DNA from: Thermotoga sp. KOL6
GTDB taxonomy: Bacteria > Thermotogota > Thermotogae > Thermotogales > Thermotogaceae
Reading direction: 5' to 3'
NCBI RefSeq assembly: GCF_002866025.1
Contig: NZ_LNDE01000001.1
Location: 1 to 64,000 of the forward strand
Length of the DNA stretch: 64,000 nt
Shown one piece after another: positions 5,637 to 13,252 of this stretch. Made by a program: the position numbers and the translations under genes. The notes beneath the pieces are model-generated. The model was given only the letters and a program-made list of their open reading frames with translations, was not told where the DNA came from and ran no database searches. Each line of letters begins with the position of its first letter. The first letter of the stretch is position 1.

Positions 5637-6556
5637 CAGACTACGAATTAAGACCTCAAAATTTCGATTTCTTTCCACTGGATTGGTCGAAAATTTTCGG
5701 AAGAACCTCGAAGTTGATCGTCGAAATAGGTTTCGGAAATGGAGAATTCTTGGCAGAAATGGCTCGAAAATATCCTGAAAAAAATTTCGTCGGTTTTGAA
5801 GTTTCCATAACGTCTTTCGTTAAGGCACAAAAGAAATTCAAGAGGTACGGTTTAAGAAACGTGAAACTCGTAAAAGTCGATGGCAGATTCGGATTGAGAG
5901 AACTCTTTCCGAACAACAGTGTAGAAAAGGTTTATGTCAATTTCCCTTGTCCGTGGCCAAAGAAAAAGCATGAAAACAGAAGAATTACCAGTCACGATTT
6001 CATTCAAACACTTTCCGCGGTTTTAGAAATGAATGGCACTCTCGAACTTGCAACAGACGAGGAATGGTATGCGAGAGAAGTTTTTGATAAATTCAAAGAA
6101 ACTGAATATTTCGTGGTAGATTCGTTTCTGAAGAATTTTCGAAGAGAAGTGGAAACACGTTACGAGAGAAAATGGAAAGCTCAAGGTAAAAAAAACTTCT
6201 TGATAATCGTTCGGAAGGTCAAACATGGAACGGTAAGAAGATTGCTGGAGGGAAAAAGTGCCATGGCTCATACGACATTCGTTGGTACTGTTACATGGGA
6301 AAGATTGAAAAACTTGGAAGGGAAGGTCTACAAAGAAAAAAGCAAAGTGTTTGTTGTGAAAAAAGTATACAGGGATGACGACTTTTTGTTGAAAATAATC
6401 TCAACTGATGAAGGCGATTTCCAGCAGGTGTACTATCTGAATCTCTCTGAAAGAAATGGGAAATGGATTTTGAAGCTAGACGATGGTTCTGACCCCTACA
6501 GAACGCCCGCTCTGAAATGGTCTCTCAGGAAGATTGCAGAGGAATTATCCATTTAG
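5627..6556 (+). CDS. trmB: tRNA (guanine-N7)-methyltransferase with C-terminal extension
   Basis: A 309-aa SAM-dependent methyltransferase that makes m7G46 in the tRNA variable loop. The SAM motif VEIGFGNGEFL and the family signature NFPCPWPKKKHENRR are visible. Typical TrmB proteins are about 210-240 aa; here about 100 extra C-terminal residues form a separate basic/beta-rich region, which I recall as typical of Thermotogales. ATG 5627 is chosen because GAGAGGTGG precedes it by 5 bases; an in-frame GTG nine bases earlier sits inside that ribosome site. The stop codon region overlaps the convergent dnaA gene by 12 bases. Confidence 0.92.
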   Translation: MVVTDYELRPQNFDFFPLDWSKIFGRTSKLIVEIGFGNGEFLAEMARKYPEKNFVGFEVSITSFVKAQKKFKRYGLRNVKLVKVDGRFGLRELFPNNSVEKVYVNFPCPWPKKKHENRRITSHDFIQTLSAVLEMNGTLELATDEEWYAREVFDKFKETEYFVVDSFLKNFRREVETRYERKWKAQGKKNFLIIVRKVKHGTVRRLLEGKSAMAHTTFVGTVTWERLKNLEGKVYKEKSKVFVVKKVYRDDDFLLKIISTDEGDFQQVYYLNLSERNGKWILKLDDGSDPYRTPALKWSLRKIAEELSI

Positions 6557-7867
6557 AGCCCTTCGCGAAAGTTCTCCAACCACTTCATCGATGATCGATT
6601 TCAATTGTCTGTTCCCCTTGAGGAGGGAATTTTTGACCCTTTTTACACTGTCAGCAACCACAGGATGTGATCTGTTGAATTTCTCTGCTATAGATCTTAG
6701 AGAGTTTTTTAAATATGTTTTTGCCACGTACATTCCCACTCTTCTGGCCGTGATTGCTTTTACGTTCCGACTGCTCGACAAGATTTCTTCTTTTGGAATC
6801 CCCATTATTCTCGACAAGATGTCCAGCAATTCATCCATGGGATCTAAAATCTTCATTTCACGAGGCTTTATGAAGTCTCTCAAAAGGGAAACTGCTTCTC
6901 TTAAATTTATTTCCTTTCCGGTGGTTTCTTTGTAAACAAGTAGCTTTATAATTGCTCCTTTCAACCTTCTCAAATTGTCATCTACATTTTCAGCTACGAA
7001 ATTCAAAACTTCTTCAGGAAGTTCACCGTTTTCTATCTCGAGCATCTTTTTTGCAATGTTTTTTCGTGTTTCTTCATCAGGGGGCTCTAACTTTGCGACA
7101 AGTCCCATTTGGAATCTTGAAATCAACCTGTCTTGAAACTCTTTCAGCATATGTGGTTCCCTGTCTGAACAAATGACGATCTGCTTTCCGGAGTCGTACA
7201 ATTCGTTGAAAGTGTGAAAAAGCTCAGTTTGAACACCCGTCTTTCCCACCAAAAACTGGATGTCGTCTATAAGAAGAATGTCAACTTTTCTTCTGTACTT
7301 TTCTCTGAACTCAGTAAGTTTTCCTTCTTTCATGCTGTCAACCAGATCGTTTAGGAATTTTTCACTCGTGATGTACATGACTCGGAGATTCGGTTCGTTT
7401 TGAACTACGTAATTTCCAATAGATTGAAGAAGATGGGTCTTACCTAATCCCACTCCTCCATATATGAAGAGTGGGTTGTACCTTCCCGGTTGTTTCGCTA
7501 CCTCTAGTGCGGCATGATAGGCGAAAGAATTTCCCGGTCCAACGACAAAATTTTCGAAAGTGTAATCGGGATTCAACGGTGTGAGGAGCACTGCTTTTCT
7601 CTTAACGAGAGGTTCGCTGTAGGAAACGTGTGGTTCAAAAGATTCAAAAGTCAACTCGTAAGAGGCATCGTTGCCAAGGATACTTTTTACAGCTTTGATA
7701 AGGACAGAGTGGTATTTTTTCTCTAACCACTCTTTTATAAAGAGATTACCTACCGAAAAGATCACTTTGTTGTTTTCTATCGACTTTACATCGAAAGAAC
7801 TAAACCAGAGTTCCCAACTTTTTCTGTTCACTCTGGCCTTTATTTCTTGAAGTATTCGATCTTTCAC
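6545..7867 (-). CDS. dnaA: Chromosomal replication initiator DnaA
   Basis: A 440-aa AAA+ initiator that binds DnaA boxes and opens the origin. Domain I is at the N-terminus. The ATPase core has Walker A GGVGLGKT (137-144) and Walker B ILLIDDIQF (D201, D202). The C-terminal DNA-binding domain contains SLRSIAEKFNRSHPVV, the helix-turn-helix signature. The inter-domain linker is short, giving the 440-aa length typical of Thermotoga. The start is a GTG with GTGGGGGT upstream. Neither dnaN nor a run of DnaA boxes is adjacent, so this is not a classical dnaA-oriC-dnaN locus. Confidence 0.97.
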   Translation of the reverse strand: MKDRILQEIKARVNRKSWELWFSSFDVKSIENNKVIFSVGNLFIKEWLEKKYHSVLIKAVKSILGNDASYELTFESFEPHVSYSEPLVKRKAVLLTPLNPDYTFENFVVGPGNSFAYHAALEVAKQPGRYNPLFIYGGVGLGKTHLLQSIGNYVVQNEPNLRVMYITSEKFLNDLVDSMKEGKLTEFREKYRRKVDILLIDDIQFLVGKTGVQTELFHTFNELYDSGKQIVICSDREPHMLKEFQDRLISRFQMGLVAKLEPPDEETRKNIAKKMLEIENGELPEEVLNFVAENVDDNLRRLKGAIIKLLVYKETTGKEINLREAVSLLRDFIKPREMKILDPMDELLDILSRIMGIPKEEILSSSRNVKAITARRVGMYVAKTYLKNSLRSIAEKFNRSHPVVADSVKRVKNSLLKGNRQLKSIIDEVVGELSRRALNG

Positions 7868-7989: not shown

Positions 7990-8947
<958 letters not shown>

Positions 8948-8951
<4 letters not shown>

Positions 8952-10141
8952 GAAAGTACCACCACCGACTCTTTCCCATACATTTTTCTCGCTTCTTCTT
9001 GAAAGTCCTCGTTATGAAATTTTGAAAGGACGAAAAGAATTCTTCGCCTTGCAACGGGCACGTCAACGTGTCCATCGGTGAACACTACTGTTCCTTCTAC
9101 CCTAAGTATCCGCTCCGAATAATCAACGGCCGGCTGAAGATCGGTGCTTCCACCGCCCACGATATTCAAATCTTTCCAGTTTCCTGCTCTGTACTTGACA
9201 ACGGATGTGATACTTTTGTCAACTTGGATGAGCCAAATTTCTTCTCCCAAGATATCGACTATTCTTTCCAGCTCTGTGATGAACTTGTTTAATTCCTTTT
9301 CCACAATGCTACCGCTAGTGTCGATTACGACAGCCACTTTGGGTAGATACTCGTTCCTCCAGCCTGGCAAGTAATCGTATCTTCTATTCGGCTTCAAAGG
9401 TGTCGAATACCGATCGGCTTTGATGGAAACTCCGAAGAACCGTCTGAGAAGAGTTTTCCAATCGAGTTCAGGATTTTCCAAAAGAAGATGGACTTCTCGT
9501 TTGATACCAGAAGGAAGCGTATCTCCGAACAAATTGAAAGCTTTTTTTGTTCTATCTTTTGTGAGTTCCAATATCATTTCGATTGGAACGTCTTCTTCCA
9601 TTAAACCCGAGTGATCGTCTACGTTCTCTCGAAACTCTGCCACTGCCTCTACATCGTATCTCCCAAGTCTTTCCATTTCTTCCAAAATCCACTTGTGGTA
9701 TGCTTCTGCGTTCTCAAACATCATCCATTCGGGTGGTAAAACAAACAGTTTGTCGTTGTCTACAGCATGGTTTTCTTTGACTAAGACATCAAGGGGAACA
9801 CCAAAAGCTGCAAGTTCTGGAATATATTGATTTATAGCAGCATCCATGGCAAGATCCCAGATCTTTCTGTCTCTTTCGTTCTTCGGTTTGATTCTGAAAT
9901 GCTGAAGAACGATATGCATAACCTCGTGTAGCAGAAGGGCTTCTACCATCCTCAAAGGTTTTTCTTCAAAAGATTTGGGGTTGAAGAGAAGCATCACGTC
10001 TCCAGTTGACGAGAACGAAATTTTCAAGTTCTTGATGGAATCAGAAGGAATGATTTTCATTCCGAGGAGTACGTAGTAATAAAAAGGAGATTTCTTTCCT
10101 ATGTTTAAAAGAGCTCTTCTGATGATTTCCTCGGTGTTCAT
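8948..10141 (-). CDS. VWA-like domain protein with N-terminal HExxH metallopeptidase-like domain
   Basis: A 397-aa protein of the DUF2201/COG3864 type. The N-terminal half carries a zinc-protease-like HEVMH motif (72-76). The C-terminal half is a von Willebrand A-like domain with the MIDAS motif DTSGS at 274-278 and a later FTDGH block. Such proteins pair with MoxR AAA+ ATPases, and the ATPase gene lies directly upstream with an ATGA overlap. The pair is generally thought to remodel or mature partner proteins; no partner is known here. The start is ATG 10141. Confidence 0.85.
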
Positions 10142-11193
10142 AGTTCACTCACCATTCTTCTAACACTCTCTTTTTCCACTATCCGTTCGAGAATTTTGTC
10201 GAAAAGATCTGATTTCTCTCCGGCTTTTTGTGATTCATCCACTATGAATCTCAGAATTCCGTAGAAAGATTCTTTGGGGATTTTTTCCGACAGTTCTATC
10301 AAATTATGAGAGAAAGTTGCCAAGTTTTTTTCGAGAGTTTCTCTATCGATTTTGGAAAGAAAGTCTACGATTCTCAGAACAAGGGTATTCGCTGCGTGCA
10401 TGTCTTTCAATCTTTCAACTTTACCCTCAAGAAGAACGCTTTCCACAGAGGGAATTCGTGTTTTTTGGAAAAAAGAATCGTAGAAAGCTTTTGCAGCTTC
10501 TGGACCAACTATCCCCGCAGCTAGAATGTAACCGTACTTTTCTTTCTCCTCGTCCGTGAGAGTTTTTAGAACGTTCGACAGTTTGTACCAGCTTCGCGGA
10601 GATGGTTTCAAAGAAATCTTCAAGGAAAGATTCCGCTCGCTAAAAAGAAACTCTGGATAATTCTTTATGAAGTTCCTCACTTCTTCTGACACACCGTTTC
10701 GGCTCGCCCACTCCAACCATTCGGACGCGTTTGGATTGACTTCTAGGATAAAAAATCTGGATATGAAAGCAGGATCTGTGATCAAATCTGCTTGATCGTA
10801 CTCCTCTTCTGGTGGATTCATGGCGGCCATGATCCACGTTTCATTTGGAAGAACATGATTGTGAATTCTTTTGTCCACAAGGAGTTGCATAATGGCGTTT
10901 CGAACAGATCGATGCGCTCTGTTTATTTCGTCCAAGAAGACGATGGTGTTTCCATTCTCTGGCCACCAGTCGGGCTTCAAAAAGGTTGTTTTCTCTTCCG
11001 ATCTCGCAGGGAGACCTATCAAATCACCTGGTTCCATTTGGGAAAGAACCAAAATAATCAGATCTCTACCTGTCTCCTTGGCTATATCTTTGGCAATGTC
11101 GGTTTTACCAACCCCGAAATGCCCAACCAGAAGGGGAATTTCTCCTGCCATCATAATTTTCTTGGCCAGATACTTCGCCTCTTCTACCCTCAC
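10138..11193 (-). CDS. MoxR-family AAA+ ATPase
   Basis: A 351-aa AAA+ ATPase with Walker A GHFGVGKT (24-31), Walker B VFLDEINRA (D88, E89) and the sensor-like block AAMNPPEEEYDQADLITDPA. MoxR proteins act as chaperones that load cofactors or remodel VWA-domain partners; the next gene encodes exactly such a partner. The start is a GTG with GGAAGGTG upstream. It is the first gene of a minus-strand operon divergent from the Mrr-like pair, with only about 65 bases between them for both promoters. Confidence 0.9.
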   Translation of the reverse strand: MRVEEAKYLAKKIMMAGEIPLLVGHFGVGKTDIAKDIAKETGRDLIILVLSQMEPGDLIGLPARSEEKTTFLKPDWWPENGNTIVFLDEINRAHRSVRNAIMQLLVDKRIHNHVLPNETWIMAAMNPPEEEYDQADLITDPAFISRFFILEVNPNASEWLEWASRNGVSEEVRNFIKNYPEFLFSERNLSLKISLKPSPRSWYKLSNVLKTLTDEEKEKYGYILAAGIVGPEAAKAFYDSFFQKTRIPSVESVLLEGKVERLKDMHAANTLVLRIVDFLSKIDRETLEKNLATFSHNLIELSEKIPKESFYGILRFIVDESQKAGEKSDLFDKILERIVEKESVRRMVSEL

Positions 11194-11258
11194 TTTTTCA
11201 CCTTCCTTTCCTCAAAAAATAATATCACGTCTGTTATCATTGGAAAGGGTGATTCGAT

Positions 11259-11675
11259 GTGACTACCATCGTCGGTATCGCTCTTACCGCCTTTGTGATT
11301 TTTTATATCATCTTTTTGTCTTCCCAGGAGAAAAAGAAGGAGTTCACACCGGAATCCGTGGTTCAGAAGGTAAAAAGATACTATGAAAGGAAGGGATATC
11401 AAGTTTCCCATCAGATGGTCAACGACTGTGTGTTGCTTTTGGTAAAGAAAGGAGCTCGTAAAATCCTTTTGGTCGTTGGAACTGTAAATTTCGAAGTGGT
11501 GAAAGAAGTTCTTTATACGGCCTATATGAATAGGATCAGAGATGTTAGAGTGATACACACTTTCATAACAAAAGAAGCTCAGGAAGCCTTCGACAAGATG
11601 CAAAGAAGGTACAAGGTTCACAGGACGAAGGTGAAGAAAGATGAAATATCTCATTTTGAGTCTGTTGCTTTTTAG
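11259..11675 (+). CDS. Membrane-anchored degenerate Mrr-like protein
   Basis: A 138-aa protein with one N-terminal transmembrane helix (about 3-22) and a cytoplasmic domain. The order of predicted strands and helices (KRYYERKGYQV, then KILLVVGTVNFEVVKEVL, then VRVIHTFITKEAQEAF) matches that of the Mrr-like neighbour downstream, but the acidic residue and QxK of the nuclease core are missing. I read it as an inactive paralogue of its neighbour. The start is GTG 11259 after GGAAAGGGTGAT. Its end overlaps the next gene by 35 bases, so the two are translated together. The function is unknown. Confidence 0.75.
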   Translation: MTTIVGIALTAFVIFYIIFLSSQEKKKEFTPESVVQKVKRYYERKGYQVSHQMVNDCVLLLVKKGARKILLVVGTVNFEVVKEVLYTAYMNRIRDVRVIHTFITKEAQEAFDKMQRRYKVHRTKVKKDEISHFESVAF

Positions 11676-12099
11676 TTTTATTCTGTGGATATGGTTGTCG
11701 AAGAGCAAAAAAAAGAAAGAGCGATTAAAAGATCTCTTGAGAAAGGGGTTGAAAAACCCTTACCAGTTTGAGATGTTTGCGAGAGAGTATTTGAGGGAGA
11801 ATGGTTTCAAATCTGTTAAGACAACAAGAAAAAGTAAAGATTTTGGAGCCGACATAGTTGCAAAAAGGCATGGTAGGACGGTTGTTTTTCAGGTTAAAAT
11901 GAGAAGTTCCGTGGTGGAAAAAAGTGTCGTGAAAGAACTAATCGCGGCAGCTTACATCTACGGTGCCACCGAAGTGGGAATCTTTACCAATACCGAAATT
12001 TCAAAAGGGCTTGAGAGAGAATTGAAAAATCTTGAAGTGTTGAAAGGGTTCATAAAAAGGGTACACATTGTGAAGAATGTTACTCTGGAGGAGGTTTAA
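11641..12099 (+). CDS. Membrane-anchored Mrr/restriction-endonuclease-like nuclease
   Basis: A 152-aa protein with an N-terminal membrane helix (4-19) and a C-terminal PD-(D/E)xK domain of the Mrr_cat type. The core is visible as E44 in the first helix, D71 in DFGADIVA, and Q84-V-K86 in VVFQVKM. This is a compact, single-domain form without the winged-helix DNA-recognition domain of E. coli Mrr. It overlaps the preceding degenerate paralogue and ends 20 bases inside the convergent TolB-like gene. A role in DNA quality control or defence near the membrane is possible but not shown. Confidence 0.8.
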   Translation: MKYLILSLLLFSFILWIWLSKSKKKKERLKDLLRKGLKNPYQFEMFAREYLRENGFKSVKTTRKSKDFGADIVAKRHGRTVVFQVKMRSSVVEKSVVKELIAAAYIYGATEVGIFTNTEISKGLERELKNLEVLKGFIKRVHIVKNVTLEEV

Positions 12100-13252
12100 A
12101 TCTCACAATCCATATGTCGGGTTCCATATCCTTTCTGTAAACGGAGAAGGCAACGAGTTTTCCATCCTCAGAAAAAGCTGGGTAAAAGGCGTCGTATGGG
12201 AGAGTCTCCGTAAGGCACCACACTCTACCTGTTTTTAGATTCTTAGCGTATATTCTGAACACACCGTCTCTGTTCGAGGAAAAAATTAGGTAGTTGTCGA
12301 AAACGTCTGGATCGAATTCGTTGTAAGGACTGTCTTCCACTGTCGTCACAGTTCCATCGGGGAGAAGTTCGTATATTCCAAAATTGGATTCTTTGAGTCC
12401 AACGAAGATGATTCCTTTTCTTCCCTTCACGGGAGTGAAAACCCAATCAAAAGGTAGATAATAGCTCTCCTCTTTCATGGTCTTTAGATTCTTTACCACG
12501 AGATGATTCGATGTAGCATCTTCTTGAACATAAACTACGGTATTTTCATCCAGCCAGTTTGGATTGTAAGCGGCGTATTTTCCACGCGATATGAGCTTTA
12601 TTTTTGAAGAATAATCATCCGATATTGGCATGTAGTATATGTTCCAATTTCCATGGAGTGATCCTTGAAACAACAAATTTTTCCGATCCGGCGATATTCT
12701 GGGGAAATACTCACTACTTCCGTATATAGGCATATAGAACAGTTTCCCACTCTTTCTGTCTATCAGGAATAGATTTCTATTGCCAGAAAATCTCTCGGAG
12801 GAGAAAACTAAGTATTCATCGGAAAAATCACAGTACTCGTCCAATGCAGGATGAAATGTGAGTTGGAAGAGATCGGGAAATTCGTTCAACGAAAAAAGAT
12901 AAAAAGATGCTTTCTCCAAAGGAAAGGACGCACACTCCATTACAAAGTCCCTGTAATACTTGTATCCTTTGGGGCTGTATTCGTACCGTACGGTTTCATT
13001 TTTGTATTTCCATTCTCCAACATATGTATTCTCTGTCGAGTTGTAAGAAAGGAAGAAATTCATCGAAAAAGTTGCCGTTGCAAATTCTGTGATCGTTGCT
13101 TCTTTTGGAAGTAGTTCGAAGATCTTCATTTCGATGTCGTTTAACACAGGTGATGCCCCTATCGTGCTGCTCATACTTAAATTCAAAGTTACAATAGTGA
13201 AAGAGAATAGAGGTATAATAACGAAGATTGCGAAAAGCACCCTTTTCATCAA
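12080..13252 (-). CDS. Secreted TolB/PD40-type beta-propeller protein
   Basis: A 390-aa protein with an N-terminal signal sequence (KRVLFAIFVIIPLFSFTIV). From about residue 150 there are repeated PD40-like blades, seen as ISPDRKNLLFQGSLHGNWNI, PYNEFDPDVFDNYLIFSSN and YPAFSEDGKLVAFSVYRKD. The fold is that of TolB, but Thermotogales lack a classical Tol-Pal system, so a sugar-binding or structural role in the periplasm is equally likely. It overlaps convergently with the nuclease gene. The ribosome site is not strong, and the start could be either of the first two Met codons. Confidence 0.8.
   Translation of the reverse strand: MMKRVLFAIFVIIPLFSFTIVTLNLSMSSTIGASPVLNDIEMKIFELLPKEATITEFATATFSMNFFLSYNSTENTYVGEWKYKNETVRYEYSPKGYKYYRDFVMECASFPLEKASFYLFSLNEFPDLFQLTFHPALDEYCDFSDEYLVFSSERFSGNRNLFLIDRKSGKLFYMPIYGSSEYFPRISPDRKNLLFQGSLHGNWNIYYMPISDDYSSKIKLISRGKYAAYNPNWLDENTVVYVQEDATSNHLVVKNLKTMKEESYYLPFDWVFTPVKGRKGIIFVGLKESNFGIYELLPDGTVTTVEDSPYNEFDPDVFDNYLIFSSNRDGVFRIYAKNLKTGRVWCLTETLPYDAFYPAFSEDGKLVAFSVYRKDMEPDIWIVRFKPPPE

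Follow-up and report, generated by a model that had tools for sequence, protein, structure and literature searches.

An overlapping gene pair in Thermotogales for a putative membrane-anchored Mrr-like nuclease and its catalytically degenerate homologue

The DNA analysed here (the window) comprises the first 64,000 nucleotides of contig NZ_LNDE01000001.1 from Thermotoga sp. KOL6. It contains two overlapping genes, the second of which encodes a protein with the full set of catalytic residues of an Mrr-like nuclease and the first of which encodes a predicted homologue that has lost them. The explanation that we prefer, and to which we give a probability of about one half, is that the two proteins form a membrane-tethered heterodimer of an active nuclease and a pseudo-nuclease, which has one active site and acts on DNA at the inner face of the membrane.

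In this mechanism, the overlapping genes would ensure that both proteins are made together and side by side in the membrane. The product of gene 1, an ancient inactive homologue of gene 2 kept as an obligate partner subunit, would join the product of gene 2 in a heterodimer with a single active site, to which the dead subunit would contribute DNA binding and restraint. A PD-(D/E)XK dimer that has two sites cleaves both DNA strands, and one site would nick or trim. At the inner face of the membrane, the proposed heterodimer would nick or trim its substrate, expected to be branched, replicating or incoming DNA, without making double-strand breaks. The pair lets one ask why a bacterium holds a nuclease at its membrane and what a pseudo-nuclease does. 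Inactive nuclease twins are well known in eukaryotic repair. Among the titles and abstract openings retrieved, we found no description of inactive twins of bacterial membrane nucleases and no literature on this gene pair.

The gene pair and its products

Gene 1 (11259-11675, plus strand, GTG start) encodes a protein of 138 amino acids and gene 2 (11641-12099, plus strand, ATG start) a protein of 152 amino acids, as given in the list of open reading frames. The end of gene 1 and the start of gene 2 share 35 nt on the plus strand (11641-11675), an overlap that is consistent with coupled translation of the two genes. The pair is chromosomal and single-copy in a genome of 1.71 Mb, and by gene order it would correspond to TM0931 and TM0932 of Thermotoga maritima. 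A gap of 65 nt (11194-11258) separates it from a divergent MoxR-type ATPase gene, which lies with the genes for a DUF2201 VWA-like protein and a third protein on the minus strand (8211-11193). Beyond gene 2, a TolB-like propeller gene faces the pair (12080-13252, minus strand). A dnaA-like gene, named from its sequence, lies 3.4 kb from the pair (6545-7867), and an Fe-alcohol dehydrogenase gene is found in the window 9.6 kb upstream of it.

Gene 2 matches the Pfam family Mrr_cat (PF04471) over residues 39-127 with an E-value of 5e-15 and a score of 56 bits against a cut-off of 21; the genome contains two other Mrr_cat places. E44, D67, D71, Q84 and K86 are invariant in all 19 orthologues; thus, the retention of E44, D71, Q84 and K86 that the sequence-only reading had noted in this one protein extends to the whole orthologous set. 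F43, G55, T62, F68, E99, Y107, G108, G113, T116 and F137 are also invariant among the 19. In the AlphaFold model of gene 2 (pLDDT 88.5), a long helix at the N-terminus precedes a domain of the PD-(D/E)XK type. Its best solved match is AF1548 (Z 11.8, rmsd 2.5, 105 residues aligned), AspBHI and EndoMS are among its other best structure matches, and MspJI and Hjc resolvases are near the top in Foldseek. A sequence search of the PDB with gene 2 returned a single match, which we judged to be due to chance, and neither gene of the pair had an NCBIfam match over the cut-off. In total, gene 2 is best explained as encoding a cytoplasm-facing, membrane-anchored, putative Mrr-like DNA endonuclease.

Gene 1 fits no family in Pfam, NCBIfam or PADLOC, and Mrr_cat was absent from the Pfam matches of 18/18 members of its family. 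Its product is predicted to have one N-terminal transmembrane (TM) helix (approximately residues 3-23) followed by a PD-(D/E)XK-like domain that is catalytically degenerate. At the positions of the catalytic E, D and QxK residues, no acidic residue, Q or K is conserved in the orthologues, and no catalytic residue is kept in any of them, so the missing acidic and QxK core first noted in the single sequence is a property of the family. The only invariant columns are A110 and H121 (19/19, one sequence being partial). H121 (11619-11621) stands out as an invariant histidine in otherwise fast-evolving proteins.

The AlphaFold2 model of gene 1, for which the input was gene 1 sequences only, has a pLDDT of 84.8. 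Its elements follow the order helix, helix, three strands, helix, strand, helix, strand, as in gene 2. The model matches EcoT38I (Foldseek E 5e-4; Z 9.2, rmsd 2.9, 105 aligned), EndoMS (Z 9.2, rmsd 4.1, 94 aligned) and AF1548 (Z 8.3, rmsd 4.2, 95 aligned). RPB5 subunits of RNA polymerases tie with the nucleases in the same Z range, which counts against the heterodimer, and unrelated alpha/beta proteins rank below RPB5. RPB5 has a related fold, is devoid of nuclease activity and serves as a structural part. We conclude that gene 1 is predicted to have the PD-(D/E)XK core fold, as a degenerate homologue and not as a member of Mrr_cat. Thus, the description of two overlapping genes that each encode a membrane helix and an Mrr-like fold agrees exactly with the reading frames and, for gene 1, with the modelled fold; an unrelated fold of the first protein, which had been named in advance as the outcome that would speak against it, is not what the model predicts.

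HHalign comparison of gene 1 with gene 2 gave a probability of 87% with the TM helices included and 19% without them (E 0.0012 for one comparison), the lower value being a second point against the preferred explanation. Without the TM helices, the domain profiles aligned over 86 collinear columns with a score of 24.5, which was reached in 0/200 column shuffles (mean 11.5, maximum 18.7); the reversed-profile control scored 18.5. Profiles and predicted folds together support a distant homology of the two genes. Alternatively, gene 1 could have an unrelated alpha/beta fold, with its likeness to gene 2 arising from chance and the common membrane helix. The lack of a family match and the modest profile score without the TM helix would suit such a protein; however, the model is confident, its elements are in the PD-(D/E)XK order, several nucleases are among its top fold matches, and shuffled profiles failed to reach the real scores both with gene 2 and with the dead protein family of Bacillaceae described below (0/100). 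We therefore regard an unrelated fold as very improbable.

By hydropathy, one N-terminal hydrophobic segment was found in 18/18 gene 1 proteins and 18/18 gene 2 proteins scored. It is preceded by 0-1 K/R residues and followed by 3-10 within 15 residues, and because of this excess the domains of both proteins are predicted to be cytoplasmic. Both genes are under purifying selection, with dN/dS values (Nei-Gojobori, overlap included) of 0.13-0.41 for gene 1 in 10 orthologue pairs and of 0.08-0.26 for gene 2 in nine pairs, the tenth being saturated. Given these low values and its conserved columns, gene 1 is not a decaying pseudogene.

Conservation of the pair and its genomic neighbourhood

Gene 1 and gene 2 were found as a unit in the same 19 of 45 Thermotogales genomes (strong matches, with E <= 8e-16 for gene 2 and, by profile, E <= 8e-24 for gene 1). 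The pair is present in 7/7 genomes of the genus of the window and in 1/1 of a second genus, in 0/6 other genomes of that family, in 11/11 genomes of a second family (one locus of which is titled Pseudothermotoga) and in 0/20 of a third family; thus, its presence follows genera. In all 19 genomes gene 1 directly precedes gene 2, with a spacing of -35 to +2 nt; the value of +2 (G008) depends on the choice of start codon, and an alternative open reading frame overlaps by 4 nt. Gene 1 of G010 was missed by the single-sequence search and taken from the list of open reading frames. Among 103 Thermotogota genomes, gene 1 matched in those 19 and, weakly, in one more (G079, E 0.003), and a clear gene 1 was in no case found without gene 2. 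Weak matches at other loci were left out, for gene 2 in G014, G022, G023, G029, G032 and a second place in G041, and for gene 1 in G018, G023, G033, G034 and second places in G000 and G008. Five of the weak gene 2 places were rejected, their open reading frames resembling other Mrr-like proteins, YraN-like proteins or nothing.

Over 18 genomes, the pairwise distances of the gene 1 proteins are correlated with those of the gene 2 proteins (0.96), a value that was calculated without a background gene and that is explained in part by the species history common to both. Gene 1 is the more diverged of the two (mean protein distance 0.68 vs 0.57). This divergence, together with A110 and H121 as invariant residues of its own and with RPB5 among its fold matches, could indicate that gene 1 encodes a nuclease-derived, membrane-bound scaffold for DNA or RNA that acts in the same pathway as gene 2 but forms no heterodimer with it. 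The strict adjacency in 19/19 genomes and the lack of a clear gene 1 without gene 2 in 103 genomes argue against such a scaffold, which we consider rather unlikely.

We compared the neighbours of the pair in six of eight regions, one of the six from the family of the window, with Pfam applied to the genes of G002 and G003. In the second family, a lysine 2,3-aminomutase gene follows the pair and a sliding clamp gene lies further on, and on the divergent side there are genes for a LytR-type protein, endonuclease V and an Fe-alcohol dehydrogenase; in G002, the sliding clamp gene is directly after the pair. Two such regions, with the pair near the sliding clamp gene and divergent to the LytR-type and endonuclease V genes, are L102:7099-8731 and L103:8966-12676. 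The Fe-alcohol dehydrogenase gene of the window is possibly a trace of an ancestral region common with the second family. The pair was kept despite the changed neighbours between Thermotogaceae and the second family, and this suggests that the two genes belong together.

According to PMC7159879, MoxR-vWA conflict systems can have Mrr-like nucleases as effectors. With this report in mind, the pair could be an anti-invader system, acting in phage defence or as a check on transformation, possibly together with the MoxR and VWA genes. Gene 2 moreover has partial PADLOC matches, confined to the Mrr domain, to the candidate PDC-S02 (E 3e-11) and to ZorD (E 6e-7). However, a MoxR gene is present in 10/10 relatives tested irrespective of the pair: it occurs without the pair in 6/6 Thermotogaceae genomes that lack the pair and lies far from the pair in 3/3 second-family genomes examined. 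PADLOC had no match for gene 1 or for the VWA protein, the presence of the pair follows genera, and its second-family neighbours are the endonuclease V, sliding clamp, LytR-type and lysine aminomutase genes. Because MoxR and the pair separate in other genomes, we rejected the pair as part of a MoxR-vWA ternary conflict system or of a unit with the propeller gene, and an anti-invader function appears quite unlikely. The earlier proposal that the proteins may act on phage gained no support: no match to the pair was found in 50,697 phage records or 72,556 plasmid records, the genes are inherited as single chromosomal copies beside housekeeping genes, and no defence genes were seen near them. Taken together, the genomic setting suggests a role in ordinary DNA metabolism more than in defence, because the genes are single-copy, follow genera, have no mobile copies and lie near replication and repair genes, although the latter are two neighbours that may be there by chance.

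Solo relatives and known nuclease systems

A search of genome contigs with one peptide pattern gave 26 loci, to be taken as a sample, of which 21 are outside Thermotogota. All 21 encode a hydrophobic N-terminal segment (one marginal), and the gene 1 profile matched none of these 21 loci at E-values up to 10. Further relatives were found at 11 loci in three other Thermotogota families, with no gene 1 match alongside. Membrane-anchored Mrr proteins of approximately 145-240 residues are thus common, contrary to the sequence-only reading, in which membrane-anchored nucleases of this size were called unusual; the special feature is the dead partner. These Mrr_cat (PF04471) single-TM proteins of Firmicutes and Thermotogota share with gene 2 the layout of a TM helix plus domain and the catalytic set, but they are mostly solo, and the overlapping dead gene 1 is found only in the Thermotogales families f1 and f2. 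That active relatives manage without a dead partner speaks against the heterodimer. At five loci in another Thermotogota family (L187, L189, L191, L192 and L193), a small gene for a multi-helix membrane protein overlaps the end of the TM-Mrr gene, and this protein is a possible different membrane partner of TM-Mrr proteins.

Combinations of one active and one inactive subunit are found in the PD-(D/E)XK-type heterodimers XPF-ERCC1 and Mus81-Eme1, which follow the same logic as the proposed heterodimer. By contrast, those enzymes are soluble, eukaryotic or archaeal, and have an ERCC4 motif and HhH domains; the likeness considered here is one of subunit logic. Among solved structures, the archaeal nucleases Hjc, AF1548 and EndoMS are some of the nearest in fold to both models; they are soluble, unlike the pair, and Hjc and EndoMS are homodimers of active subunits. 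The subunits of R.BspD6I (2p14, 5liz) also resemble the gene 2 model (Z 9.6, rmsd 3.3, 122 aligned, and Z 8.8, rmsd 3.3, 129 aligned). In R.BspD6I, each subunit of the heterodimer has catalytic activity, and one of the two is a large, site-specific nickase.

Linked active and degenerate genes in Bacillaceae

Next to the active gene, four Bacillaceae loci carry a gene for a degenerate TM-Mrr protein, and the two genes are divergent (L096:3057-4468, L091:3182-4468, L097:3173-4576 and L086:3319-4594). A profile search detected such a dead Mrr paralogue in 21 of 41 genomes of one Bacillaceae family (21 genes); 37 of the 41 matched either kind, and the sorting into active and dead profiles covered 29 loci. 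E, D67, D71, Q and K are all kept in 17/17 unbroken active proteins and in 0/21 dead proteins; none of the latter retains Q, 2 retain E, 13 retain D71 and 16 retain K. An active-family match is divergently linked to the dead gene in 20/21 genomes. The arrangement is divergent in 17/17 genomes with both on one contig, with gaps of 73 nt to 20 kb as measured between the matched stretches, and in three further cases by coordinates (G104, G136 and G113); in G130, the two are on different contigs. In G126, G127, G128, G131 and G137, the active partner is identified by its profile match.

Like the Thermotogales pair, these pairs link an active TM-Mrr protein to a catalytically degenerate membrane paralogue. 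No name is known to us for such genes, and the linked pairing in Bacillaceae is new here. That the pairing is kept across the relatives of Thermotoga and also occurs in some Bacillaceae suggests that the dead twin has a genuine function, and the heterodimer proposed in the sequence-only reading, a reasonable idea, thereby gains comparative support from two phyla. Pairing that is strict in one phylum and linked in another makes the system a clean, small and thermostable model of a pseudo-nuclease. More generally, TM-Mrr nucleases may repeatedly, at least in Thermotogales and Bacillaceae, have gained a dedicated dead membrane paralogue and so represent an unrecognised class of membrane-tethered split nucleases, in which an enzyme that would otherwise cut both strands is converted by its dead subunit into a guided one-site enzyme at the inner membrane, a generalization that we put forward tentatively and to which we give less than even odds.

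The dead gene is broken in 2/21 Bacillaceae genomes (stops in G109 and G137) and the active gene in one. The latter is G136 (L154:2093-2721), in which the active TM-Mrr coding sequence is distributed over two frames and its divergent dead partner is open; the split could be either an assembly error or real decay. These broken genes indicate that the pairing is looser in Bacillaceae than in Thermotogales and that the dead partner is dispensable there, which is a further point against the preferred explanation. They also bear on an alternative in which gene 1 serves as an inhibitor, or as a partner of the immunity type, that, like an antitoxin encoded first, holds the nuclease inactive at the membrane until a trigger releases it. 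Such a role would fit the position of gene 1 ahead of gene 2, overlapping or abutting it in 19/19 genomes, and the catalytic loss, which would leave gene 1 as a competitor for the dimer surface. However, Firmicutes and other Thermotogota have close relatives of gene 2 as solo genes, an active-family match is still linked to the dead gene in those Bacillaceae in which the latter is broken, and the single-copy pair without plasmid or phage matches is unlike typical toxin-antitoxin loci. The solo relatives and lost partners thus argue against an antitoxin role, and we consider it unlikely.

In a tree over all groups, a branch with support 99/94 has the Thermotogales proteins, dead and active, together on one side; within the other, Firmicutes side, the dead proteins of Bacillaceae form one group (100/99). 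The tree thus favours separate origins of the dead partners in the two lineages. A topology that unites all dead proteins in one clade is not rejected (p-AU 0.31), and long branches meet. Moreover, the gene 1 domain scored 29.3 with the Bacillaceae dead profile, slightly higher than with gene 2, which argues against two origins. Against the Bacillaceae active profile, gene 1 scored 10, no better than shuffles; like the HHalign value without the TM helices, this counts against the preferred explanation. Finally, the Bacillaceae pairs differ from the Thermotogales pair in that their genes are divergent and sometimes 2-20 kb apart, in that solo active genes are common, and in that the dead protein seems to have two hydrophobic segments whereas Thermotogales gene 1 has one.
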